Origin: Bacillota bacterium
GTDB lineage: Bacteria; Bacillota; Clostridia; Clostridiales; Clostridiaceae
Direction: 5' to 3'
NCBI GenBank assembly: GCA_021781655.1
Contig: JAJXWJ010000020.1
Location: forward strand, 1-49,507
Length of the DNA: 49,507 nt
Positions within the stretch are counted from its first letter, which is position 1. Every line of letters starts with the position of its first letter. This document shows positions 30,486 through 44,502 of this stretch, in pieces. The notes below the pieces were generated by a model that worked only from the letters and a program-made list of their open reading frames with translations, was not told the DNA's origin and made no database searches. Both the position numbers and the translations under genes were made by a program.

Positions 30486-32918
30486 TTACTTACACAGCTG
30501 CCTTTTTAGCAGTTTTTTAATACTCTTTATAGGCTTTTTAAAAAAGTCTTCCTTAGAAATATTAATTATCTGCTCACCAATAATACTTTTTATACTTACA
30601 TCATCAATAACTATATCAACATCATTTATCCTAAATGCATTAATTTTATTTTCTTCAACATTATTTTTATCTACTTTAATAATTATTTCATTATATTGAC
30701 GTTTAAGTTCAACAAAAAGTCTAAACTCTTCTTTATTTTTTATACAAAGTTCCGTTACTGTAGATGCATTTTTAAGAAGATAAATGGTTGTATATATAAA
30801 CTTTCTCACTTGAAAATTTAATATTTCTATTTTAGATTCAAGTTTACACCACTTTTCAACCTCAAATTTATAATATAAATCAACTGAAGCTTTTGGTGAT
30901 TCTTTTATTTCATTCCTTTTAACTAGATACACATTTTTTACTTTGCCATACCATAATATACCACTATCGTTTTTAAATAATGTTTTTGACTGAGCTAATG
31001 CAATATATTTAACATTATTTTTAGCCAGATTAATATTTTTTTCTGGAATATGATAAAAATTATACTTTAAATTTATTTCTAACTGTTCTTTACTTTTTAG
31101 AGATCCAACTAATACTTCTCTTTGAGTAAAATAATCATCTTGTAGATAGCTTTCTTTTCCTATAGGTTCAATTGCTCTTTCAAAGCTAGAATATGAAGAT
31201 TCATTTACAATATCGTCTAAGAAGTGTTCCATTAACTTTGTTGTACTCGGTAAAAATGGAATTGCTCCTATATTTACTTCTTCTATACTTTTATAGAAAG
31301 CATTATTTTTGAATTCTTCTTCATTATTATATGGAAATAATACAAATGCTCCAAAAATGCAATTATTTATTTCAATAGAATTATTTTTCATTTCTTCTTT
31401 GTTGTCCAATAACTTATCTTTCTTATAATCATATATTATTGCATCCCTGTATCTATGCATTGTATTAATATCCTCTTCTTTTGGGCCAATGCTGCCATAC
31501 TTTACTATATACTCTGGAGATATATCTATCTTATATTTGGCATCAAATACAAATTCATAGGATTTAATATTACTGTCTTTATGCATTGAAAGGATATTAT
31601 CTGGTTTTTGTGCTACTGTCTTAGAACCTCTGGTGGAATTATAGTAGACAATAAATTTTTCGCCTGTTTCTAAATTCAAATATGTAAGTGATGATTCTAC
31701 ACCTTTTTTAAGAGAAACTGTAATTCCTTCTTTGTTAATCTTCAAAATATCGGAACTTACTAATTTATATTTCTTTTGAAGTAAAGAATTTATTTTTATG
31801 AAACACCAATATTCATATAATAACGAAAGCTCTTTTATAGAAAGCTGAAATATGTTAGAATTTATGCTTAATCCCTTTTGAAGCATAAGATAATATTTAT
31901 ATACTTCCTTATATCCGTTTCCCATAGAAAATACCAGTGAAAGATTTGCTTCATTATATTCACATGGAATATTTTTTAAAATTGAATTGTTAATTCTTTT
32001 ATTTATTTCTCTTTTAAATGAACTTAATTTATTTAATATATCCACATCAATATTATTAAGCTTTTTATATTTCAAAATGAATTTATCTATTTTACTATCT
32101 ATTTTTAGCAGCATAAACTTTAAAAATCTATTTTCTTTTGTATTTGTTGTTACAATTTTATTTGTTATCAGTGCTTCTTTGGGTAAATATGCATCATCTA
32201 TCTTCTCCATTAAATATGGTCTTTTTTCTAAATATTTTATGGTTTCATTTGAAGCTTTTTTTATTTTATGATATTTTACTACCTTTGCTTGCTTTTGAAG
32301 TTCATGATATGGATTCTGTAATATTATATCTATTGATTTTTTTAGCTTTTCAAATACATAATTTAGGATACTGTAAAACTCACTATCATTATTATTAGTT
32401 TTATTATTTATCTCAGATGATAAATAAGTCCTTGCTAAAAATCCATAAGCTAAATTGTAAATTTCCTCGTTTACATCACTTAATATAGCTTTATAATCCT
32501 CTTTATAGCTTATTTTTGTTGGATATACTTCTATAGTAATCTTTATTTCTAATTTATTATTAACCTTAACTAGAATATCTGTAAATCCAATATCACCTTT
32601 GAAATTTATTACACCACTCAAATTTTTTGATTTTGATGTTATTGGTGTTACTTTATTTCTTATGTTTATATTCTCATGATAAAATTCTACATCACAATTA
32701 TTCTTGCTTTGAATTATAATCTCATAATTAGAATATTCTTTAAGATATAGCCCTTTTTTATAATCAATATCTAGATTATAATTTTCTATTTCAAATGTAT
32801 TTATTTCAAAAACAGCCTCATTACTAATTCCATATTTTTCACCTTTGAGAACAAATATTACATTTGGTGTTTCTATAAATACAAGTTCATTATTATTGCC
32901 AGAAGGTTGTGAATCCAT
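30486..32918 (-). CDS. DUF2357 nuclease, McrC-like
   Basis: 810 residues. The N-terminal ~130 residues are a β-rich module. The middle is helical and includes KKASNETIKYLEKRPYLMEK and KENRFLKFMLLKI, typical of DUF2357. The nuclease signature is KPDNILS (PD at 439-440) followed by YEFVFDAKYKID (Asp459, Lys461), as in McrC-type PD-(D/E)XK enzymes. A further ~300 residues form an unassigned C-terminal region. It overlaps the McrB-like gene by 26 bp and has AGGAGG upstream of ATG 32918. Together they form a modification-dependent or type IV-like restriction unit: AAA+ translocase plus nuclease. Confidence 0.85.
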   Translation of the reverse strand: MDSQPSGNNNELVFIETPNVIFVLKGEKYGISNEAVFEINTFEIENYNLDIDYKKGLYLKEYSNYEIIIQSKNNCDVEFYHENINIRNKVTPITSKSKNLSGVINFKGDIGFTDILVKVNNKLEIKITIEVYPTKISYKEDYKAILSDVNEEIYNLAYGFLARTYLSSEINNKTNNNDSEFYSILNYVFEKLKKSIDIILQNPYHELQKQAKVVKYHKIKKASNETIKYLEKRPYLMEKIDDAYLPKEALITNKIVTTNTKENRFLKFMLLKIDSKIDKFILKYKKLNNIDVDILNKLSSFKREINKRINNSILKNIPCEYNEANLSLVFSMGNGYKEVYKYYLMLQKGLSINSNIFQLSIKELSLLYEYWCFIKINSLLQKKYKLVSSDILKINKEGITVSLKKGVESSLTYLNLETGEKFIVYYNSTRGSKTVAQKPDNILSMHKDSNIKSYEFVFDAKYKIDISPEYIVKYGSIGPKEEDINTMHRYRDAIIYDYKKDKLLDNKEEMKNNSIEINNCIFGAFVLFPYNNEEEFKNNAFYKSIEEVNIGAIPFLPSTTKLMEHFLDDIVNESSYSSFERAIEPIGKESYLQDDYFTQREVLVGSLKSKEQLEINLKYNFYHIPEKNINLAKNNVKYIALAQSKTLFKNDSGILWYGKVKNVYLVKRNEIKESPKASVDLYYKFEVEKWCKLESKIEILNFQVRKFIYTTIYLLKNASTVTELCIKNKEEFRLFVELKRQYNEIIIKVDKNNVEENKINAFRINDVDIVIDDVSIKSIIGEQIINISKEDFFKKPIKSIKKLLKRQLCK

Positions 32919-34626
32919 CCCTTGTAAACCTCCTTATCATATAGATAAGTTTTTCATTTGTTAATTTGTAATTATAGTTTATGGTAACATCGCCTTTATT
33001 GGAGTCAATTATTTTATCTTTAAGTAATTTCAACTCTTTTTCTTCTAAATATTCTCTATTAGAAAATCTATAAGGATTAAACAATTCAAATATATCAAAC
33101 AGCATATCCAAGACTTCACTGCTGCTTCCGCTTATTTTAGGCAGTATTTTTTGAACTACACATATATCAAAAGCTTCACTAAAACTCATTAAATTGTCTT
33201 TAACAGCATAAATTATGTAAAATATTATTTCATCTCTCACTCTATAACCAAAATGATAATTATATTTTTCAAGAATATTATTAATATTAATTAATTCACT
33301 AATAACCTTTTGAGCTATATCCTGAAACTCTCCACAATCCTTAATTTTTAAGAATTCTGATTTTAAGAAATCATTATGATAAACTTTAATTTCTTTGTCA
33401 TTATTAAAAGTGCTGTTACTTGAATCACTATCCTTAAAAGAATAATTTAAATCTACTTTATTAAATTCAATAGTATTTGCTCTATCCAAAACCTTTTTAC
33501 TAAAAGGAAAAGTAGTTTCATCCATATTTACTGTTCCAATAATATATAAATTTTGAGGAATATAAACATCACCATAAGTGCTGATAGATATTGAATCTCT
33601 GCCTATCTGCTCTTCGCTAAGTAATGTATTAGTTATTATTTCGTAATCTTCATTTAATCTTCTTGTTTCAATAAGTGAGAGAATGTCACTAAAATAGTAT
33701 TCAACTCTAGCCAAGTTCATTTCATCCAAACAAATGAAATATGGAATTTGTGGATTCATCATTGCTTCATAACACACTTTAGTTATTATTCCAGGAGTGA
33801 ATTGTCCTCCTATATTTCTAAAACCTAAAAGATCCGTACTGTCGGACCAATCCGGCTTTACTGGAATTAAATTAAATCTTTTATTTTCTGCAGTAGCTCC
33901 TAATGATTTAGCAAATAATTCTACTATTTTACTCTTACCTGTACCTGAAATCCCGGATAAAATTACAAATGGTTTTGTTTTTAATGAAATATATAGATTC
34001 TTAATTAATGATTTTTCATATGTATATCCTTGATTTGTTATAAAATCATAAATGTAATCTATCATTGGTTCAACTTTAATATCAGTGATTATTTCTGTTT
34101 CATTTATTTCTTCATCAATTTCTTCTACATCTTGATTATCTGCTTCAGCATCTTCAATATAAATAGATTCTTCATTATTGTTTTTAATTAATTTTACAAT
34201 AAATGTATCTTTTTCTTCACCTTTGTAAAAATCCATGTATTCTTTGTAGTCATCAGGTACTTTTACCTGTGCTTTGCTATTTTGATCTTTGTGTTTCATA
34301 ATATAGTCGTAACTAATAGCCAGTTCCTTCGATAAGTATTCCATTAATTTTTTCTTATATAAAATTTGTATAACTATGCTCTCTCTTTCTTTAAAATTAG
34401 GCTGCCTGATAGAAGCCTCAAATTTTATATTATTAATTATTATTATAATTTTTATTTGTATTCCTTTGGATATTTCTTTTGAAAGATTGTTAAGAAAATC
34501 TTTATAATATCTAGTTGGTATGGTTGTCCCTTTCGTAAATGTGCTGAAATCTACTGTTTTTCTTGCTATTATATTTTTGTTTTCAGTTTCTATTTTACTC
34601 CATGAATCTGATCTTTCTTTTTCCAT
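32893..34626 (-). CDS. McrB-like AAA+ NTPase
   Basis: 577 residues. Walker A LSGISGTGKSK (~223-233), FICLDEMNLARVEYYFSDIL (Walker B, ~295-315), the McrB-type sensor IIGTVNMDETTFPFSKKVLD and arginine region follow the McrB family, whose GTP-driven ring moves DNA to its McrC nuclease. Before it lie ~150 residues starting WSKIETENKNIIARKTVDFS with IPTRYYKDFLNNL, an uncharacterised target-recognition module, and an acidic linker (EDAEADNQDVEEIDEEINET). The substrate modification recognised is unknown. It is the first gene of the McrB-McrC-82 aa unit. Confidence 0.87.
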   Translation of the reverse strand: MEKERSDSWSKIETENKNIIARKTVDFSTFTKGTTIPTRYYKDFLNNLSKEISKGIQIKIIIIINNIKFEASIRQPNFKERESIVIQILYKKKLMEYLSKELAISYDYIMKHKDQNSKAQVKVPDDYKEYMDFYKGEEKDTFIVKLIKNNNEESIYIEDAEADNQDVEEIDEEINETEIITDIKVEPMIDYIYDFITNQGYTYEKSLIKNLYISLKTKPFVILSGISGTGKSKIVELFAKSLGATAENKRFNLIPVKPDWSDSTDLLGFRNIGGQFTPGIITKVCYEAMMNPQIPYFICLDEMNLARVEYYFSDILSLIETRRLNEDYEIITNTLLSEEQIGRDSISISTYGDVYIPQNLYIIGTVNMDETTFPFSKKVLDRANTIEFNKVDLNYSFKDSDSSNSTFNNDKEIKVYHNDFLKSEFLKIKDCGEFQDIAQKVISELININNILEKYNYHFGYRVRDEIIFYIIYAVKDNLMSFSEAFDICVVQKILPKISGSSSEVLDMLFDIFELFNPYRFSNREYLEEKELKLLKDKIIDSNKGDVTINYNYKLTNEKLIYMIRRFTRDGFTTFWQ

Positions 34627-35283
34627 ATTGGCTGTTTCCCCTTAAAATCAAATAATTATTTTTTTATAAGTTATTTAATATAGCTTCCAATAATTCAGTT
34701 TATATTTACAGTATTAAAATTTAAAAATATAATTTCAAAATCTTCCTGTTTTACAATATGATGAAATTGACAAATATATAGATTTCTCAAATTAGGAATT
34801 TGAATTTATCCATCCTTCATTTTTCATGTCAAAACATGAAATTTTAAATTTACAAACCATATATTTGATATTAAATTCAATTTACCTAATAAGCTAAAAA
34901 ATAAATTTTGAATAATAATATTCATCAAATAAATTTAGCAAATCAAATTATTAATAATTTGTTCATAACACCCGAGGGTTTTGCTAGATAAATGAGTTTG
35001 CTAAGCACTATGTAAATATTTTGTAATTTCTAATAACTTATTATCACTATTTTCGCCAAGCTTTCTTAATATTCTATTAAACTTTTTAAAACCATATATT
35101 TGAAATTACTATTGATATATTTGTAATAACATCCTCATTAAATAGCTCCAAAACAGCAATTAGATGAAGGACACATATATTAAATGAAAATAGGTTACTT
35201 TGAAATCATTTTAAAAATATCTTGTTGGGAAAAAAATAATAACAATACAGATTTTAAAAAATAAGAATATGTTATTTTTTTAG
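34627..35283. other. Long AT-rich spacer without a gene
   Basis: No frame here looks coding over more than ~30 codons. A short minus-strand stretch near 35015-35095 reads KKFNRILRKLGENSDNKLLE, then ITKYLHSA, stop, and may be a relic. A local GC-richer patch (34971-34980, ACCCGAGGGT) lies between TAGCAAA-type repeats on the minus strand (near 34915, 34985 and 35000). No riboswitch or tRNA pattern fits. Confidence 0.4.
35256..35280 (-). terminator. AT-only hairpin behind rdrB
   Basis: AAAAAATAA (35256-35264) pairs with TTATTTTTT (35272-35280) around a 7-nt loop, directly after the rdrB stop on the minus strand; the T-rich arm can act as the terminator tract. Confidence 0.5.
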
Positions 35284-37680
35284 TTATAAAAAAGTAACAT
35301 ACTGTGATAATTCTCTTAAATAATCGATGTATTTCATAACATCTTCTTCATTTTCACCTGACTTAATAAGATCTAATGCTATAATTGAATATTCATTACT
35401 TAAATTTGTTTGAAAAATCGCGCTGTCATCTGTATTAATACATACCATTAAATCTTCATTATTGTTTTCTTTTTTAGTTAAACCGTTCCTATTAAATTTC
35501 CATAATGGTAAATCTTCATTTTTAGTTATCGAACTAATTTTTCTATTTGATGTTGGATTTACTTCTATTATAATTCCTCTTTTATATATTTTATTGTGCA
35601 ATTTGTCTTGTGCCATCTTAATTGCAGTAACATATATCTCATTTACATCTTCAACTACTTTCTTGATTCCATTGATTCTTAACTGAATATTAAAATGATA
35701 ACAATGATATAGGTTCCTTGCCTTTTCAGATCTAATTGCTAAACTATGATTCTTATTTTGATAGTTAAAATCAACACTTTGTCGTAAATATTTCTCTTTT
35801 TCTTGAAAGTATTGATATTGGTCAGGATTGTCACCACGCAAACAATAACTAAGCCAATAATCTGTAATATCCGGCACATCAATTCCAGTTCCCTCAAATA
35901 ACTGGATTGCGTATTCTCTATATTTTTTTTCTAATCTATACTGAATATCCATTGATTCATGCATTTGATTCTCATTCATTCTGTGTAACCACACAATATC
36001 ATCTACCATACCTTGCAATGTATTTATCAAATTCATTCTTTTTATAGAAAAATATTTATTAATATCAATTCCAAGTGCTATTGCATGTCCTAATCTATCT
36101 CCTCTTGTAAAATTCATAAATTCCAGTACATCATCAATTGCGCGTAATCCACTAGTAATATTTATGTATTCTTCTCCAACATGATATGTGAAACCAACTT
36201 TATGTATCCCATCAACCTTTTCTCTATGTAAACGAAAAGCTAGGGCAAAAACTTCTGGCGGACAATAAATTTCAGCGTTAGCCGCATCTACCCCTATTAC
36301 TGGTACTATATCCCTCATATAATATGGTATCTTTGTTTCAAAATATTTGTTTAGGGCTACCGATTTTGATTTAATGTCTTTTCGCAACTTTATATGACGA
36401 CATCCATGATGTTCATTAGATTTGCTTTTTATATAGTGCACAACAATCCCTAATTTGATTTTTTGTATTTCAGAATCTTTTTCTTTATATTTGTTATATA
36501 TTTCTTCATTTATTTTGCTAATTTGCCTCATTTTCAAAATCAAATCTTTCTTGATTTTAGGGGCAATTCGTAATTCAATTCCTTTAACATTTTTTTCTGC
36601 GTAATACTTCTCAAGTACAGATTCAATTAATAACCTATCATCCTTTTTACTAAGGAACATATCCTTAATACGTTCGCATTCATCAAATTTTGAAAATCCC
36701 ATTCCATTATTGTCTTGAACGAAGCAGAACTTAATATCACTGATAGCTGCAATATAGATATTGAATAATGCTCTTTCAAATTTGGATAGTTTGTTTTCCA
36801 TAACTTGTTTAAAAATATTTTTTAAGAATTCTCTTTCAATTATAAATATATCGCTTATTGATGTTGTCTTAAAGTAAAAATTTTCTTTGAATATCAAATA
36901 ATTTATTTGAACTTTTTCCTTTTCAGAAAAAAGATCAACCATAACTTTAGCATTTAGTATCTTTAAAATATCAAATTTGTGTTCAGATTTTTTTCCTTCT
37001 ATTATCCATGATAAGTACATTCTAATTGCTTGAATTTTAAATATTCTCATATTTTCGAAATCTGCATAAGCATATATCCTATCTGAATTTCTTGCTTTTT
37101 TTTGGCATTTAATTGATTTAAAAGGATCTCCGCATATTAATTTATACCAATTTATCTCCCATGAATATCCAGAACCATTTAAATGCATATGATTCTCATA
37201 CATTCCTTTTGATAAAATATTATATATCCTTTTGTTATCATGCTTTACAACATAACCACATTTAATATTATCTGGATTAGATATCGCTAAAAAAGCTGCC
37301 TGAAATATTAATCCATCCACCTTGGAGATAAATCCATCCCATTGATACAAATCATCAAAACTTATTGTAAGAACATTATTTTTAAGTTTAAGAATCCTAT
37401 TCGAATAATATATATAGAGAAAAAGAGGATCTATTTCATAATTTTCAGAGATTTTATATGTCATTTCAAGATTTTGTATCTCACGTTCTAACAGCAACCC
37501 TACTTCATCAGCAGAATAATTAAATGGGTATTCTTGTATATATCTCACAATAATTTCTTTTTGAAAATTATTATCCCTTAAATTCCATGACAAATTTGAA
37601 GAATATTTAAATCCATTATCAATGATTTTATTTAAAATTCCTCTATAAATAATCTTGAAAAATCTATCTGCATTATTCAC
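35284..37680 (-). CDS. rdrB: RADAR adenosine deaminase RdrB
   Basis: 798-residue divergent adenosine deaminase. Metal and catalytic motifs lie in family order: HMHLNGS (His164, His166), YHVGEEY (HxGE, ~500), DRLGHAIALG (~540) and INTDDSAIFQ (Asp-Asp ~751-752). The large insertions and length are those of RdrB, not of housekeeping deaminases (~330-350). In RADAR, RdrB shells associate with RdrA and convert adenosine, in RNA by early reports and in ATP/dATP by later structural work, to inosine, poisoning the infected cell. It overlaps rdrA by 8 bp. No extra SLATT/Csx27-type membrane gene is next to it. Confidence 0.85.
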   Translation of the reverse strand: MNNADRFFKIIYRGILNKIIDNGFKYSSNLSWNLRDNNFQKEIIVRYIQEYPFNYSADEVGLLLEREIQNLEMTYKISENYEIDPLFLYIYYSNRILKLKNNVLTISFDDLYQWDGFISKVDGLIFQAAFLAISNPDNIKCGYVVKHDNKRIYNILSKGMYENHMHLNGSGYSWEINWYKLICGDPFKSIKCQKKARNSDRIYAYADFENMRIFKIQAIRMYLSWIIEGKKSEHKFDILKILNAKVMVDLFSEKEKVQINYLIFKENFYFKTTSISDIFIIEREFLKNIFKQVMENKLSKFERALFNIYIAAISDIKFCFVQDNNGMGFSKFDECERIKDMFLSKKDDRLLIESVLEKYYAEKNVKGIELRIAPKIKKDLILKMRQISKINEEIYNKYKEKDSEIQKIKLGIVVHYIKSKSNEHHGCRHIKLRKDIKSKSVALNKYFETKIPYYMRDIVPVIGVDAANAEIYCPPEVFALAFRLHREKVDGIHKVGFTYHVGEEYINITSGLRAIDDVLEFMNFTRGDRLGHAIALGIDINKYFSIKRMNLINTLQGMVDDIVWLHRMNENQMHESMDIQYRLEKKYREYAIQLFEGTGIDVPDITDYWLSYCLRGDNPDQYQYFQEKEKYLRQSVDFNYQNKNHSLAIRSEKARNLYHCYHFNIQLRINGIKKVVEDVNEIYVTAIKMAQDKLHNKIYKRGIIIEVNPTSNRKISSITKNEDLPLWKFNRNGLTKKENNNEDLMVCINTDDSAIFQTNLSNEYSIIALDLIKSGENEEDVMKYIDYLRELSQYVTFL

Positions 37681-40198
37681 CTGAATACTCCTTTATCATA
37701 TCCATAACATATTGCTTATCTTCTTTAGAAAATTTTCCTTTTGCTTTTATTGAAATAAGTCTATTTTTTATATCATTAGATATATCGTTATTATTCAACA
37801 TTCTTTCTATCGCTTTCAAAACATCCTGTCTCGGTATATATTCATCTTCTCCACGTTCTTTTAATTTATGAAGCTTTTCAACTTCAGAACCATCTTCAAA
37901 TAAATCAAATTCTTTAAAATCTACTTTCTGGATAATTTCTCCTGTATTTTCATCTTTTCTTACGTCACTAAATTCTTTAGAATAAACTGTTCTAAACTTA
38001 ACTTCTGTTTCATTACAATTATGTATTAATTTTGTTTTAAATGAAAATCTTTTATCCTCCTTCTCATTTGCTAATAGATCATTTATACTCCTAATTGCGT
38101 AATTAATTAAATTTTTTTCGCTTCTTCTAATATAGTTTGCTATTAGAAATCTATCTATATCAAACATAGATCTTAAAACGAAAAATTCATCTTCTACATC
38201 ATTAAATAAATAATCTATAGAGTTTTTTATATACTCTTCTCTCCCCATAAATCCAAACAAATCATAATCATATTTTCTACCTTTTGTTAGTTCTAGTTTC
38301 CCATACTTAAAGACATTTCTATATTTATACATTCTTTGAGAATCTTTTGATAGATTATTTCCTATCATTTTTCGTGCTACTTGAGTTATGCTAGATTCAC
38401 TTGAAACATTCATATAACACATATTGTCAATAATTTCCTTATAATTTTTATCTTTATCGTATTTAGCATCGTCATATTCAAATTTCCACGAATAATTTTG
38501 GTTTTTATATTGATTACTAATATCATCTAATATATATTTAGGAATACAATACGCATTTAATAATTTTAAATATTCTTCAATTCTTATTTCATATTCATTT
38601 TTGATTTTACTATCATCTAAACTCTTAGATTTTTCAATAACAGCTCTTAGATATAATTTTTCTAATTCCAATGAATATAAAACTTTCATTGCATAAATAA
38701 ATATTTCTATATTCTCTATTTTTAATACTTTTAGTTCCTCAAATAATATATATACATCAGCAATTGCGATATTTTCTTGCTGTACCATATAAATATCCAA
38801 AAGTTTATTTTGGGAATTTTTATCTTTTTCATTTTCTAAAAATGTTTTCCAAAGGTTATAATATACATTATAATTTTTCTTCTCAACTGTAGAATATTCC
38901 CATTCGTTAATTATTTCGTTCATTTTATCAGAAAGCACAATTTTACATCGATCTAGAAATTGCAATTTATACGTTTCAATATTATCTTTTATCATTTCAG
39001 ATTTATCTTTTATCCTTACTGATTTATCCTTTATATATTCATCTTTTTCTTGAACAATTCTCATTTTAAGGCAAATGTTTTTAACTAAATCAAGTGCACC
39101 TCTTAAATTATTAGGAAATTGTAAATTGCTCTCTTCCTTTGAATCTATAGGACTCAAATCAAGACGTATTGATTCACGCCATACAAGATAGAACCAGTTT
39201 CTAAGCTCTATTTTTAAATCAGATCTACTGCAATAAGATTCAAGATGATATTTTTTAATAAATTCATTATAGAATAACTCTTCTTTATCGTTTTTATTTA
39301 AGTTTTGATTCAAAATATTGTCAACAATTTTTATTAAAGTACTATGATATATTTCTTCTCCAGAAGGTAAAAAAATACAATTAGAAGCTGGTACTGTTTT
39401 TTCTATATATTTAGCCATTTGATATTTTATTTCTTTTTTAGATATCATTTTTTTATTTAACAAATTCTTATTTTTTTCAACCATTTCTTGAGTAACTACA
39501 TTTTGAAGCTGTATTCCACGATATGCCAATATAACTAATGCATATGGTTTAAGATATTTTCTTATATCCTCAAGCATTTTATAAACTTCATTAGATTGAG
39601 CCATATCCAAATCATCAATTATAATTGCTAGTTTTTTTATTGATTTTCCGTTTTTAGATGATATTGCATTCTCAAATTTCAAATATAATTCAATAACTTC
39701 GCCAACTAATTCATCAAATCTTATTCTATTAGAATAATTCTCCAATATTTCTTCCGTTAAATTTGATTCTACAAAATCATTTTTTTCTATTCTGATATTA
39801 TTCAATGTAGATGAAGCATCTTTAACCTTAGATATTAGTTCTAAACGACACGACTCATCATATTTTTCAATATGATTATTTTCTTCTACAATCCTATGAT
39901 ATATTTTACTAAACATTACCTCCAATAAATTTAGTGAACCATCAAATGAACTTGGATCTATCAAACCTATAACACAATATTCTTCAGAAATAACGTTCTT
40001 TATTGTTCCTAAAAATGAACTTTTCCCAGTACCTCTATCACCAATTACACTAACTACCATTCCAGAAATATCATTGTTATTTGACTCAATAATTTTATTA
40101 AAATCATCCATTTGTTTAATAAATAAATAATTTTCATTTTTAGCTTCACTCTTATCCGCATAATATGGTTTGTTGATTTTTCCCCAGTTAATTTCCAT
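37673..40198 (-). CDS. rdrA: RADAR ATPase RdrA
   Basis: 841-residue P-loop ATPase. Walker A GDRGTGKSS (53-61) and Walker B AIIIDDLDMA (191-200) stand in an N-terminal AAA/STAND-like domain, followed by a long helical C-terminal region. The start MEINWGKINKPYYADKSEAK and the ATP-binding VSVIGDRGTGKSSFL suit RdrA, the ring-forming sensor of RADAR that is needed for RdrB action upon infection. Assignment leans on the adjacent, overlapping rdrB. AAGGAGAG precedes the ATG. Upstream (40199-40320) no convincing promoter boxes were found. Confidence 0.82.
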   Translation of the reverse strand: MEINWGKINKPYYADKSEAKNENYLFIKQMDDFNKIIESNNNDISGMVVSVIGDRGTGKSSFLGTIKNVISEEYCVIGLIDPSSFDGSLNLLEVMFSKIYHRIVEENNHIEKYDESCRLELISKVKDASSTLNNIRIEKNDFVESNLTEEILENYSNRIRFDELVGEVIELYLKFENAISSKNGKSIKKLAIIIDDLDMAQSNEVYKMLEDIRKYLKPYALVILAYRGIQLQNVVTQEMVEKNKNLLNKKMISKKEIKYQMAKYIEKTVPASNCIFLPSGEEIYHSTLIKIVDNILNQNLNKNDKEELFYNEFIKKYHLESYCSRSDLKIELRNWFYLVWRESIRLDLSPIDSKEESNLQFPNNLRGALDLVKNICLKMRIVQEKDEYIKDKSVRIKDKSEMIKDNIETYKLQFLDRCKIVLSDKMNEIINEWEYSTVEKKNYNVYYNLWKTFLENEKDKNSQNKLLDIYMVQQENIAIADVYILFEELKVLKIENIEIFIYAMKVLYSLELEKLYLRAVIEKSKSLDDSKIKNEYEIRIEEYLKLLNAYCIPKYILDDISNQYKNQNYSWKFEYDDAKYDKDKNYKEIIDNMCYMNVSSESSITQVARKMIGNNLSKDSQRMYKYRNVFKYGKLELTKGRKYDYDLFGFMGREEYIKNSIDYLFNDVEDEFFVLRSMFDIDRFLIANYIRRSEKNLINYAIRSINDLLANEKEDKRFSFKTKLIHNCNETEVKFRTVYSKEFSDVRKDENTGEIIQKVDFKEFDLFEDGSEVEKLHKLKERGEDEYIPRQDVLKAIERMLNNNDISNDIKNRLISIKAKGKFSKEDKQYVMDMIKEYSGE

Positions 40199-40383
40199 TT
40201 TTTCTCTCCTTGTATCTTGTATTTTAATATTTCATTATTTTGAGATTGCTTTCGTATACCTTCACTGAAATTTGCGTATTAAATTACAAATAGTAAAAAA
40301 GTAACCAGTCATAGCTATTTTGCTTTCATTCATAATTTTCATTTCATTTACAATACAATCAGTTTTTTTATGTTTAATATATT

Positions 40384-40521
40384 TTATTTCTTTATATTCC
40401 GTTCATACTTTATATATCCACACTTATTCATCAGTTCCTGCTGCGGGACCTAACCCATATCAGAAGTTAGTAACTCAACGTACAACTTCCTCTTGCTATT
40501 AATACTAAATCTTTTTAGCAC
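40384..40521 (-). pseudogene. Tiny interrupted ORF behind the TIR gene
   Basis: A GTG at 40521 with AAAGGAG 6 nt upstream opens MLKRFSINSKRKLYVELLTS, DMG, then TAG, and the same frame continues VPQQELMNKCGYIKYERNIK, K to a TAA. The strong site argues for a once-expressed small protein of 45 residues now cut to 23. It follows the AlbA_2-TIR gene by 22 bp and could have been its third component. Family unknown. Confidence 0.35.
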
Positions 40522-40543
40522 ATTTTCTCCTTTGAAATTTATA

Positions 40544-41383
40544 TTATAATAATTTACTTGGATCAATATTATATCCACTTTCTTTCATTTCTTTGAATAA
40601 ATCCATTTTCCATCCTGATTGAGAATCCATTTTTATGTAAACAACACCAGAAATATCATTCGGTGTTTCAACTTCCCCTTTTACTAAAGCACAAACATTT
40701 TTCCTTCCAATTTTTCCAATAAGATATCCATGTTCAAATATTACATTCTGTCTTGCTCGATCTTTTAATTCAGATTGATTTTTTCCTCTTCCTTCATCAC
40801 ATGGAGTATACAAAACAACTGCAAATCCAACATTTGAATTTTCTTCTATTTTTTCAATAATTGTTTGTCCTTTACTCGCCAGCTCATGTAAAATAATTGC
40901 TTCCAATCCTAGCTTTTCAATAAATCGTGCTGTTTCTTGTTTTGCTTCGTTATCATGACCATGTACTATAAAAACCTTTGTTTTATCCATAATTCTTCCT
41001 CCTTCAATTTTTACAACTTCATTATTTTCTATCACGTATAATTTATTATCACACAAAATTTCTTTAGAAAATTTATATACTTTAATAACAAAAACATTCT
41101 TTCCTTCAATATTCAATAGTTTATATTCTATTTCTGGTTGAATAGAGAGTTGTTTTATCGCTACTTCTATAATGCCATTGAAATTAAAAGTTCTGCTTAT
41201 ATTTGTCAATTTATAACTTTTTTCCTCTTTAATAGCACCAATAACTATATATCCTTCCATTGTATTTGCCATTGAAGCTATATACATTGCAATATTTTTA
41301 GGCTTTAATTCAAATTCTCTACATAATATATTAGAAGAATCAATATCAACTAAAATTTTTTTTACTTCTTTAATATTAATCAT
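40544..41383 (-). CDS. AlbA_2 domain fused to a TIR-like nucleotide-binding domain
   Basis: 279 residues. The N-terminal ~125 look like a Schlafen/AlbA_2 module (ILCREFELKPKNIAMYIASM, ANTMEGYIVIGAI). The rest is a PF10137-type TIR-like domain: KVFIVHGHDNEAKQETARFI, EKLGLEAIILHE, GQTIIEKIEENSNVGFAVVL, YTPCDEGR and RARQNVIFEHGYLIGKIGR, including the conserved Glu of the NVIFEHG motif that in TIR enzymes attacks NAD+. Related domains are effectors in CBASS (Cap12) and Pycsar. It starts 8 bp after the HSP90-like gene and is evidently its partner, so a sensor ATPase plus NADase-type effector system is likely (inference). Confidence 0.8.
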   Translation of the reverse strand: MINIKEVKKILVDIDSSNILCREFELKPKNIAMYIASMANTMEGYIVIGAIKEEKSYKLTNISRTFNFNGIIEVAIKQLSIQPEIEYKLLNIEGKNVFVIKVYKFSKEILCDNKLYVIENNEVVKIEGGRIMDKTKVFIVHGHDNEAKQETARFIEKLGLEAIILHELASKGQTIIEKIEENSNVGFAVVLYTPCDEGRGKNQSELKDRARQNVIFEHGYLIGKIGRKNVCALVKGEVETPNDISGVVYIKMDSQSGWKMDLFKEMKESGYNIDPSKLL

Positions 41384-41391
41384 AAAAATAC

Positions 41392-43410
41392 TTACCTAAC
41401 TTTACTTAATGGTATTTTATTAATCCCAGTAAGCTTAAGCATTTTCCCAAATGTTATTTTTTGTGGGCAGTTAATCCCATCTTCAACCCATAACTCCCAA
41501 TCTCTTTCATAATCTAAAACATCCTTTTCCGAATCATAGTATAATATTACTTGTCCATAATCTGAAGGACGAATAATAATATAAATTTCTTCACCATTCT
41601 TTTTTATCATATAAATAGTCTTATCAATTTTTAATATAGAACTTAAATCATATTCCTTTTTCTTTTTATTTGCTAAATAATCTATGACATTATTCTTTGA
41701 TCTTTCTAGTATTTCATTTACTTTCTCAAATTTCATACTATTACTTTCTGATAAATGTACAAAATTATCAGCAAAAAATGAATTATCCATTGCTATTTGT
41801 AATGCTTCGTTGGAATCTATACCAGATTGAATCAGTACATCTTCAGTTATACTTTCTTTTAATATATCATCTAAATTTCCAGCCTGTTTAAATTGTATTG
41901 TTTTTTCAAATGATTGCGTATTTTGTACATTATATTTTTCTAACAAGTTATCATATTTTTCCCGCAAATTATCATACTCTTCAGCTTTTTTCATATTTAA
42001 CGATATTTCTTCATCATTATATAACCAGTATTTATGTTCACATATTTCTGGTAAAATTTTCTTAGCACTCTCCATATTCTCATTAATCCAAAAAAGAATT
42101 TTTTTAAAAATTGATTTTATTTCTTCAGTTTGATTTATACCCTTACTGCTATTTGCTTTAACAAATTTCACAATTATATCAGCTAAATCCTTAGCATGGC
42201 GTTCTCTATTTTTAGGCAAATTTAAGAAAATCATCTTATCTAGGATTTCATTTCTTATATCGTAGCCGACTTCTTTAGCTATATCTTTTAAATCGTCATC
42301 TATATCTCCATCATCTAAAAGCAAATCATCTTTTTTCATAAAAAAACCATTCTGATTTGGCAATATTGGTCTAGTTGATTTATTTAACAAAATTTCAAAA
42401 TCATTATTAACTAAATAATCGATAAAACTACTAAGCCATTTCAATGCTTCATTATTATTTTCAAACTCAAAATTATTAGTAAAATCGCTTATATTTTGTT
42501 CTTTACTTATTGTGTCAGCTATATGAGTAGCAATATATTTAATTGAATTTTCTAATAGCTCTATAGATATGCTTTTTACACATTGCTCATCATGTAATAA
42601 CCCTTTAAATATTTTATCTGCAAATTCTATAATTTTATTTTGCTTTTTATAGTCTTTATGTTCTTCATCATATAAAACTAAAATATGTGAATATACATTT
42701 ATCTTAGATTCATCACCTTCATATTTTAATTTTTTTTCTATTTTAGCTATAAGATCCTCATTATTGACTTTTTCAAATTTAATAAAATTTGATATTTTAA
42801 TATTCTTATCTAATAAATATTCACTGCAATCTTCTCCAAGTAAATTCAATATTTCCTTATATTCTTTATCTATATCCGTGTCCACGAAAAGTTCTGTGCT
42901 TTTTTTAAACAATCCTTTTTGATTTGGTAATACAGTATAATGACCAAAAGATATACCTTCAGCTATTTCTTTATCATTCTTAATTAATTCATAATATTCA
43001 CTCAACCATTCTTCTGAAGTAATTCCTATTTGTAACTCTACGTCCAAAACTGCCTTATTACCTAATTCTTCTATTTTCTTTGTCAATCTTTTTAAATCTA
43101 AGTTTTTGCACTCATTCCATAGTGAATTATACCAATAATAAATATCCTCTTTTTGGGGCAATTCATCTGGTATCCACTTACTACATAATTCCCATATATT
43201 ATTTCTAATTTCTTCATCAAAATAATTTGGAATTTTAACTTGCATTTTCCCATCATTATTAAACAAAGCAATTCTATTTCCTAAAACATTATCTATTATT
43301 GGGCAATATTTTATATATTCTTTAATCTTATTAATTACATTTTCTTTCAACCAATCAGTTGATAGCCATTCCTTGTCTTGAATTCTGTTTATTCTAGTAA
43401 TATTATACAT
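41392..43410 (-). CDS. C-terminal part of split HSP90-like (sacsin-type) ATPase protein
   Basis: 672 residues in the same frame as, and directly following, the N-terminal ORF; only one TGA (43411-43413) separates them. MYNITRINRIQDKEWLSTDW continues what in related proteins is one chain. The region is helical with repeat-like units (DVELQIGITSEEWLSEYYEL; VLPNQKGLFKKSTELFVDTD; ILPNQNGFFMKKDDLLLDDG) such as follow the ATPase domain in sacsin-like proteins, and ends near PSDYGQVILYYDSEKDVLDY, ERDWELWVEDG. It could be made by reinitiation at the ATG that abuts the stop. No enzyme motif is visible. Confidence 0.75.
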   Translation of the reverse strand: MYNITRINRIQDKEWLSTDWLKENVINKIKEYIKYCPIIDNVLGNRIALFNNDGKMQVKIPNYFDEEIRNNIWELCSKWIPDELPQKEDIYYWYNSLWNECKNLDLKRLTKKIEELGNKAVLDVELQIGITSEEWLSEYYELIKNDKEIAEGISFGHYTVLPNQKGLFKKSTELFVDTDIDKEYKEILNLLGEDCSEYLLDKNIKISNFIKFEKVNNEDLIAKIEKKLKYEGDESKINVYSHILVLYDEEHKDYKKQNKIIEFADKIFKGLLHDEQCVKSISIELLENSIKYIATHIADTISKEQNISDFTNNFEFENNNEALKWLSSFIDYLVNNDFEILLNKSTRPILPNQNGFFMKKDDLLLDDGDIDDDLKDIAKEVGYDIRNEILDKMIFLNLPKNRERHAKDLADIIVKFVKANSSKGINQTEEIKSIFKKILFWINENMESAKKILPEICEHKYWLYNDEEISLNMKKAEEYDNLREKYDNLLEKYNVQNTQSFEKTIQFKQAGNLDDILKESITEDVLIQSGIDSNEALQIAMDNSFFADNFVHLSESNSMKFEKVNEILERSKNNVIDYLANKKKKEYDLSSILKIDKTIYMIKKNGEEIYIIIRPSDYGQVILYYDSEKDVLDYERDWELWVEDGINCPQKITFGKMLKLTGINKIPLSKVR

Positions 43411-44502
43411 TCATTTCCAGTTATTCCTAGATACATAATCCAATAATGATTTATATAAATTACAAGCAGTTAAAATAAGTTCTTTATTTTCTTCAATCTT
43501 TTCATTTTCAGTATCAGTTAAGAAAATACCATCCCTTGGTTCTGTAGGATTAAATAATTTACTGTTTATTATTACAGGAAATGAAAAATCATTTGTTCCA
43601 ACTAGAGGAAAATCACAAAATATCTTTGGCTGGATTTGATTAAATGGTTTAATCCATTCGGCACCATTTTTTTCTTCAATATTTATAGCTATTGAAACTA
43701 ATTTATCATCAACTACTAATACATAACTATTGCTTGTATTAGAATCTTTAATTTTATGTATATTATATACATAAAAATTCGACAATTTACATTTAACTTC
43801 TTCATTCAAAACATATCTAATATTTTCATCTTCAATGTATATTTCCTCTAATTTAGGAGTGAAAGCTAATACATATGGAACTGATATTTTTAAATCTTGT
43901 ATACCGATTTTTGCGACTTCTAATCCCTTTTCATTTAAAACATATCTAAAAGTAGTATTATATTCATCAATATCATATTTATTATTATCATTTATTTCAT
44001 CACTTCTATTTAATTCTTCAAATGATTTATGAATGGCTTCAATTATTTCATCTCTATTTTTTCCAGATCTATCAATAGTAATTTTAAATTTTTTTATTAA
44101 ATCATCATCTCTCAAATAACCATTAACTAAAACTACTTCTGATAACAAATGTGTTGTTAAAAATCCCGTTCCAAACTTACCAGTTATCTTATCTTTATCA
44201 ACATCATCTCTTTCTTTTGTTGATACCTGTTCAATTAAAAAAACAATATTTTTTGTTGAAAACGGCTTGCCATTATGACTAAATTCAAGTACTTTATTTT
44301 CTTCATCTAAATTAATTTTAACCTTTACTTTTCCACTGGAATTAGAAACATCTTTAGCATTTTGCAAAAGTTCCCAAATCCATCTTCTAGGACTATTAGT
44401 ATTTGCAGTTAATCTAAGTTTATCCATCGCATCAATTATTTTATTTGCTACATGAGCATTGTGTGCCTCCTCACGTTCTTCCTTTATTCTGTCTGAATAC
44501 AT
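43411..44502 (-). CDS. N-terminal ATPase part of split HSP90-like protein
   Basis: 363 residues with a GHKL/HSP90 ATP-binding fold: WIWELLQNAKDV (the Mg-binding Asn), VLEFSHNGKPFSTKNI (the Asp-Gly-x-Gly counterpart is HNGKPF), KITGKFGTGFLTTHLLSEVV (lid glycine box) and NPTEPRDGIFLTD. AGAGGTGATCAA precedes the ATG. The frame ends LLDYVSRNNWK, TGA, and resumes in frame with the 672-residue ORF, so the full product would be about 1036 residues. Whether the TGA is a recent nonsense mutation, a sequencing error or is read through is open. Confidence 0.8.
   Translation of the reverse strand: MYSDRIKEEREEAHNAHVANKIIDAMDKLRLTANTNSPRRWIWELLQNAKDVSNSSGKVKVKINLDEENKVLEFSHNGKPFSTKNIVFLIEQVSTKERDDVDKDKITGKFGTGFLTTHLLSEVVLVNGYLRDDDLIKKFKITIDRSGKNRDEIIEAIHKSFEELNRSDEINDNNKYDIDEYNTTFRYVLNEKGLEVAKIGIQDLKISVPYVLAFTPKLEEIYIEDENIRYVLNEEVKCKLSNFYVYNIHKIKDSNTSNSYVLVVDDKLVSIAINIEEKNGAEWIKPFNQIQPKIFCDFPLVGTNDFSFPVIINSKLFNPTEPRDGIFLTDTENEKIEENKELILTACNLYKSLLDYVSRNNWK

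Follow-up and report, generated by a model that had tools for sequence, protein, structure and literature searches.

A probable standalone RADAR operon of the S. suis type, divergent in sequence, in a clostridial defence island

A pair of overlapping genes in a Clostridiaceae-like genome (GenBank assembly GCA_021781655.1) very probably forms a standalone S. suis-type RADAR anti-phage operon, situated in a defence island and acting through ATP/dATP deamination and abortive infection. The pair lies on the minus strand of contig JAJXWJ010000020.1, of which we analysed positions 1 to 49,507 (49,507 nucleotides; hereafter the window). The first gene, rdrA (37673..40198, ATG start), encodes an 841-residue AAA+ ATPase of the S. 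suis RdrA type, and the second, rdrB (35284..37680, GTG start), a 798-residue protein of the adenosine deaminase superfamily. The initial annotation had described an overlapping P-loop ATPase and a 798-residue deaminase with HMH, HVGE, LGHA and NTDD motifs; the open reading frames (ORFs) occupy exactly these coordinates and all of the motifs are present. The system is an ordinary, though divergent, RADAR.

The two genes follow each other in tandem on the same strand, with the rdrA stop and the rdrB GTG contained in an 8-bp overlap (37673..37680, minus strand). An AAGGAG, read from the sequence, lies 7 nt before this GTG, within the 3′ end of rdrA, an arrangement that probably couples translation of the two genes. 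A further AAGGAG precedes the rdrA ATG in the 345-bp gap upstream of the gene (40199..40543, minus strand), which presumably also holds the rdrA promoter. Promoter-like matches in the region upstream of rdrA did not exceed the level found in shuffled sequence, a terminator scan was likewise at chance level and an Rfam scan returned 0 matches. The gap has no ORF of at least 60 amino acids on the rdrA strand and one 60-amino acid ORF on the opposite strand, while the 657-bp gap downstream of rdrB (34627..35283) has no ORF of at least 45 amino acids. RADAR is described as occurring in standalone rdrAB, Csx27-associated and SLATT-associated subtypes (PMC7699616). Neither a csx27 nor a SLATT gene was found beside rdrAB in the two gaps; the operon is a standalone rdrAB with no adjoining accessory gene, in agreement with the earlier remark that no accessory membrane gene is evident. 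We also considered whether the 657-bp gap holds the remains of an accessory gene, and rejected this: the gap has no ORF, and elsewhere in the genome there are only weak DNA matches of 31-73 bp, the best being 82% identical over about 48 bp.

The motifs of RdrB are found at residues 164-166 (HMH), 500-503 (HVGE), 530-533 (LGHA) and 749-752 (NTDD). H164, H166, H500, E503 and H532 are conserved in 85/85 aligned RdrB-like rows, D751 in 84 (one gap) and D752 in 83 (one gap, one N); conservation on this scale means that the motifs are not a chance occurrence. E. coli RdrB binds zinc through H152, H154, H498 and H530 and uses E501 as the catalytic residue (PMC9994260), and the equivalents in the window, H164, H166, H500, H532 and E503, are all present. 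By sequence, RdrB matched the NCBIfam RdrB model at E 8e-37, scoring only 127 bits where the equivalog cut-off is 800, the PADLOC RdrB model at 4.4e-25 and the E. coli RdrB structures 8fnv/8fnw at 1.2e-24 (phmmer).

An AlphaFold2 model of the RdrB monomer was built from an alignment of 61 of the 72 eligible distinct RdrBs in the loci described below (pLDDT 85.9, pTM 0.90). In a Foldseek search with this model the first eight matches were all RdrB chains (E 1e-27 to 5e-25, TM 0.74-0.78), followed by Plasmodium adenosine deaminases at 5e-5. VIA-align superimposed the model on 8hr7 with Z 34.4 over 724 residues and on 8fnv with Z 34.0 over 716, and the alignment runs from end to end (model residues 3-798 against residues 1-796 of the E. 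coli chain). The insertions that characterise RdrB are N-terminal, within the core and after the last zinc histidine (PMC9994260); the full-length fold match indicates that all three are present here. The spacing of the motifs is 163 residues N-terminal to the HxH, 334 between the HxH and H500, and 219 between H532 and D751. The acidic triplet E595-E597 of E. coli RdrB, located at the 3-fold interface of the shell, aligns with I600, D601 and V602 and is thus not conserved, so that a dodecamer of the window RdrB is not assured.

Characterised RADAR systems combine an RdrA ring with an RdrB shell, convert ATP/dATP to ITP/dITP and abort infection (PMC9994260). By analogy with the E. coli, C. rodentium and S. 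suis systems, to which we look for assembly, activity, trigger and phage protection, the AAA+ ATPase RdrA should form a seven-subunit ring, register phage replication and dock on the RdrB shell via a helical crown. RdrB, as a zinc adenosine deaminase with the three RADAR-specific insertions, would turn ATP and dATP into ITP and dITP; the nucleotide pool would thereby be poisoned and the infection aborted. The effector activity of the same complex might instead be RNA editing (A-to-I), with the RNA loaded by way of RdrA. This was the original RADAR proposal, as told in PMC9994260, and the PDB titles of entries 8hra and 8hrb refer to RdrA rings in an RNA-loading state; the active site of RdrB, however, is of the mononucleotide-deaminase kind, and we regard RNA editing as an improbable effector mechanism.

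Mononucleotide deamination by a RADAR pair remains the preferred reading, and the distribution of the two genes supports their partnership. When genome contigs were scanned with six aligned RdrBs, 142 stretches were confirmed, and the best 80, which were kept, are mostly from clostridia. An iterated RdrA profile was used to find RdrA beside RdrBs of at least 700 amino acids, and placed it directly beside RdrB in 64 of 81 cases. The 17 RdrBs without an adjacent RdrA call are mostly truncated by a contig or locus end, have an overlap exceeding the 200-bp limit, or are accompanied by an RdrA frame that is split, fragmentary or too divergent. In L012/L081, L086 and L043, RdrA is present as two frames upstream of RdrB, an ATPase part and a C-terminal part of ~500-690 amino acids, which may reflect either natural fission or a frameshift. 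RdrB-like deaminases with no detectable RdrA were seen in L031 (8716-11376), where a 342-amino acid protein with no PADLOC match is encoded upstream, and in the near-identical L055/L056/L060, of which L056 ends at a contig end. The two genes coevolve: across the 59 loci with whole adjacent pairs, RdrA and RdrB pair distances correlate with r 0.90 (0/5000 permutations), and after thinning to 34 loci with r 0.78 (again 0/5000).

These observations bear on a rival reading, in which RdrB is either a common adenosine/AMP deaminase or a CRISPR deaminase of the Cad1 type and stands by chance beside an unrelated ATPase. Pfam A_deaminase and TIGR01430 match the C-terminal core of RdrB, and there is a weak PADLOC CARF_ADA match (1e-8). 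Cad1, a CARF-fused adenosine deaminase of type III CRISPR systems, has ATP-to-ITP chemistry (PMC11645235) and has its deaminase core in common with the window RdrB, but aligns over 310-332 residues only and has a CARF domain and cyclic-oligoadenylate control in place of RdrA. The full-length fold match is to RdrB alone, with other deaminases and Cad1 aligned over 301-372 residues; Pfam, NCBIfam and PADLOC scans reported no CARF domain beyond the CARF_ADA match, which falls on the deaminase part of that model; and RdrA adjoins RdrB across the relatives and coevolves with it. A chance neighbour of either kind is therefore very unlikely.

The RADAR pair sits in a region of lowered GC content, which drops from about 0.30 to 0.24-0.28 across roughly 28-46 kb of the window. 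Around it are McrBC-like, AbiLi-like, TIR, TmtA-like and PLD-helicase genes, a context that favours the RADAR identification. Downstream lies an McrB-like AAA_5 gene paired with a DUF2357/PD-(D/E)XK gene (30486..34626, minus strand; PADLOC PDC-M26). Upstream are a gene for an AlbA_2 and TIR protein (40544..41383, minus strand; PADLOC PDC-S35) and a TmtA-like gene with a sacsin-type N-terminal ATPase (41392-44502, minus strand). Other genes in the vicinity are AbiLi/RloB-like, nitrilase, MazG-like and two PLD helicases, and the defence island, at 12-48 kb of the window, also holds a short YhcG-type nuclease and an AAA_11/12 helicase with a protein kinase and a DUF4145 protein. Each of the two PLD helicases stands beside a NUDIX or MazG-like gene. 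The NUDIX and MazG-like genes were considered as handlers of ITP and rejected, since the immediate neighbour of each is a PLD-helicase gene, not RADAR. None of the island neighbours is credible as a part of RADAR.

The TIR gene is the next gene upstream, on the same strand and 345 bp from rdrA, and the operon could in principle work only together with the TIR and TmtA-like genes as a larger multi-effector system. We give this little credence, since among the 64 RdrA loci checked upstream this TIR protein adjoins RdrA in the window only, and an in-frame TGA breaks the TmtA-like gene into frames of 363 and 672 amino acids, so that a required partner may be lost. Neither gene was counted in RADAR. 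Of 147 genomes searched, none of the 146 besides that of the window had a relative of the TIR protein at 1e-15. The split TmtA-like gene is either a broken gene or has a TGA-ATG restart; a homologue on a Calothrix plasmid is a single 1068-amino acid frame. The stop codon suggests that the island may be undergoing decay in places.

In RdrA, the sequence GDRGTGKSS occupies residues 53-61 and IIIDDLD residues 192-198, and Walker A and Walker B are both intact. R55, G56, G58, K59, D195, D196, D198 and R366 are invariant in 42/42 aligned RdrA rows. The protein matched the S. suis RdrA 8fnu at E 9.9e-48 (phmmer, 166.6 bits); a profile of 42 RdrAs reached the E. coli RdrA at E 5e-29, and the profile of the relatives aligns with 8fnu as far as 8fnu residue 899. 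The AlphaFold2 monomer model, built from an alignment of 42 of the 46 eligible RdrAs from the loci, has a pLDDT of 70.2 and a pTM of 0.67. Its C-terminal half is poorly modelled: many residues between 552 and 787 have pLDDT <50, and the prediction after residue 552 is helical, mostly at low confidence. Foldseek placed 8fnu first (E 2.4e-22), and VIA-align gave Z 25.9 over 568 residues at 24% identity, compared with Z 20.4-23.3 for the other RdrA entries, of the E. coli type. Three helices (91-107, 115-138 and 149-183) lie between core strands 74-80 and 189-194 in a position that, judged by its general placement, would suit the helical insertion expected to form the crown.

Profile libraries were less informative for RdrA. 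An NCBIfam scan gave nothing at E 0.01, none of the PADLOC RdrA models reached E 0.01, and the only PADLOC match was to mad8, at 1.6e-4. As the PADLOC RdrA models do match other clostridial and Bacteroidota RdrAs, the window RdrA falls into a gap in the coverage of that library. An origin of the ATPase in another defence family, such as the mad8-like ATPases of MADS, with RADAR a misnaming, is extremely unlikely and is refuted by sequence and fold, as the mad8 match covers the N-terminal ATPase region and recurs in the Erysipelothrix RdrA, while S. suis RdrA matches at E 1e-47 and is the best fold by far. The initial annotation had called for alignment with characterised RdrA and RdrB, which led to S. 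suis 8fnu and E. coli RdrB respectively, and had named a better non-RADAR match of the ATPase or missing RdrB insertions as evidence against its assignment; the best non-RdrA structure scored Z 11.7 against 25.9, and the insertions are there. Membership in RADAR is thus supported by the sequence matches, the folds and the adjacency in 64 of 81 relatives, and the assignment is upheld.

Relationships among the deaminases were examined in a tree of 85 rows, comprising RdrBs of at least 700 amino acids and four plasmid rows, with duplicates L010-L013 and rows with long runs of X left out. There the window RdrB and its Erysipelothrix urinaevulpis counterpart (L014, NZ_WTTB01000006.1) are sisters, with SH-aLRT 100, and fall outside a group of 55 rows from Bacillota and Bacteroidota. 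This nearest RdrB is 32% identical overall and 37% over 615 core columns. The E. urinaevulpis RdrA matches 8fnu at 2.6e-47 (164.8 bits), and there too no accessory gene directly flanks the pair; unlike the window, the locus adjoins a type I restriction gene, and its RdrA is only 24% identical. The RdrAs of a Lachnospiraceae locus (L015) and of Clostridium hydrogenum (L025) gave no match to S. suis RdrA at E 1, whereas those of the window and E. urinaevulpis do match it, which places the window in the S. suis type.

RADAR of S. suis SS993 protects E. coli against the T-even phages T2, T4 and T6, and its RdrA has been solved by cryo-EM (PMC9994260). It is likewise an rdrA and rdrB pair from a low-GC Gram-positive bacterium, and is the best match of the window RdrA by sequence and fold, a likeness measured on RdrA and amounting to the 24% identity given above. 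The E. coli and C. rodentium systems (8fnt, 8fnv, 8fnw; 8hr7-8hrb) share with the window the full-length RdrB fold, the three insertions and the zinc and catalytic set, but differ in the acidic triplet at the shell interface and in an RdrA only 11-12% identical to that of the window in fold alignments.

Among 147 genomes related to that of the window, its own included, RdrB-like genes occur in four and an RdrA like that of the window only in its own genome. No match to RdrA was found in phages or plasmids, and a search for RdrB among phages led nowhere. For viral contigs, a scan with the single protein gave no relative and a profile scan gave 6 RdrB-like loci. RdrB-like genes on plasmids, in L095 (1083-6161, Salmonella enterica plasmid pIndS104-CTX), L097 and L098, are annotated only as hypothetical proteins; of the seven matches to RdrB on plasmids, that from Aliivibrio alone carries a name.

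In other RADAR loci, three kinds of additional gene, absent from the window, were found at the upstream end of the operon. The U2 family, proteins of ~400-540 amino acids with TPR repeats, is encoded by the gene immediately before rdrA, on the same strand, in nine rows (L027, L033, L037, L039, L048, L053, L059, L061 and L068) of one ten-row RdrB clade, the tenth row, L043, showing none. Eight of the nine grouped together; L048, added on grounds of similarity (16% to the first row), is the least sure. In a Lachnospiraceae-centred set, the U2 profile found members in 7/397 genomes, each time on a contig that also has an RdrB match, and none elsewhere at 1e-10. The seven regions (L152-L158), two of which correspond to L053 and L068 already used and five of which are new, have the order U2-rdrA-rdrB in 7/7. 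RdrB matches occurred in 31 of these genomes; in 15, centre genome included, they were strong (E <1e-40), and in the other 16 they were confined to a short stretch at the C-terminal end of the profile, as expected of an ordinary deaminase. U2 is a candidate third component of RADAR.

The genes of the U1 family (~600 amino acids) likewise directly precede rdrA and share its strand, in nine rows (L028:4026-5873, L030, L032, L035, L042, L044, L045, L078 and L064) of a different ten-row RdrB clade; eight rows grouped together and the L064 gene was added as a further match, and in the tenth row, L047, rdrA is cut by the contig end. Two U1 members scanned against Pfam matched no family above the cut-off, and the only similarity in the PDB was a weak one to SAVED domains (E 0.018). 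Further genomes yielded U1 only in the centre genome itself, in a set of 397 and again in one of 349, so that an exclusive link between U1 and RADAR is tentative. U3 is a Pycsar-cyclase-like gene that overlaps or abuts rdrA in two Bacteroidota loci (L066:2630-3310 and L054:4706-5464), with PADLOC PycC matches of 2.4e-26 and 4.4e-28. Inspected by eye, both U3 proteins appear to be missing one or more of the usual metal-binding aspartates, and U3 may therefore be a non-catalytic nucleotide binder. Our literature search, with most subscription papers outside its scope, found no paper on a third RADAR gene of the U1, U2 or U3 kind. On balance we favour a modular view of RADAR, in which rdrAB is bare in the window and Erysipelothrix and is joined, in gut-clostridial and Bacteroidales sisters, by a third gene, dedicated to the system and placed upstream, whose product could be a phage sensor or a regulator.

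The initial annotation had valued the locus as a useful divergent example from a low-GC Gram-positive background, RADAR having mostly been studied in Gram-negative bacteria. As a rare case of this kind it does not stand: phage protection by the S. suis SS993 system and the structure of its RdrA are already on record (PMC9994260), and clostridia have many RADAR loci, so RADAR in such bacteria is not new. What the window adds is a divergent two-gene system of the S. suis type which, as its RdrA is missed by the PADLOC RdrA models, would probably be under-annotated. According to PMC9994260, it is not known what activates RADAR. If RADAR is modular, the role of sensor or regulator in the two-gene form would fall to the C-terminal half of RdrA, and comparison of two-gene lineages with those carrying the upstream TPR gene offers a direct route to asking whether RdrA or a third protein does the sensing.
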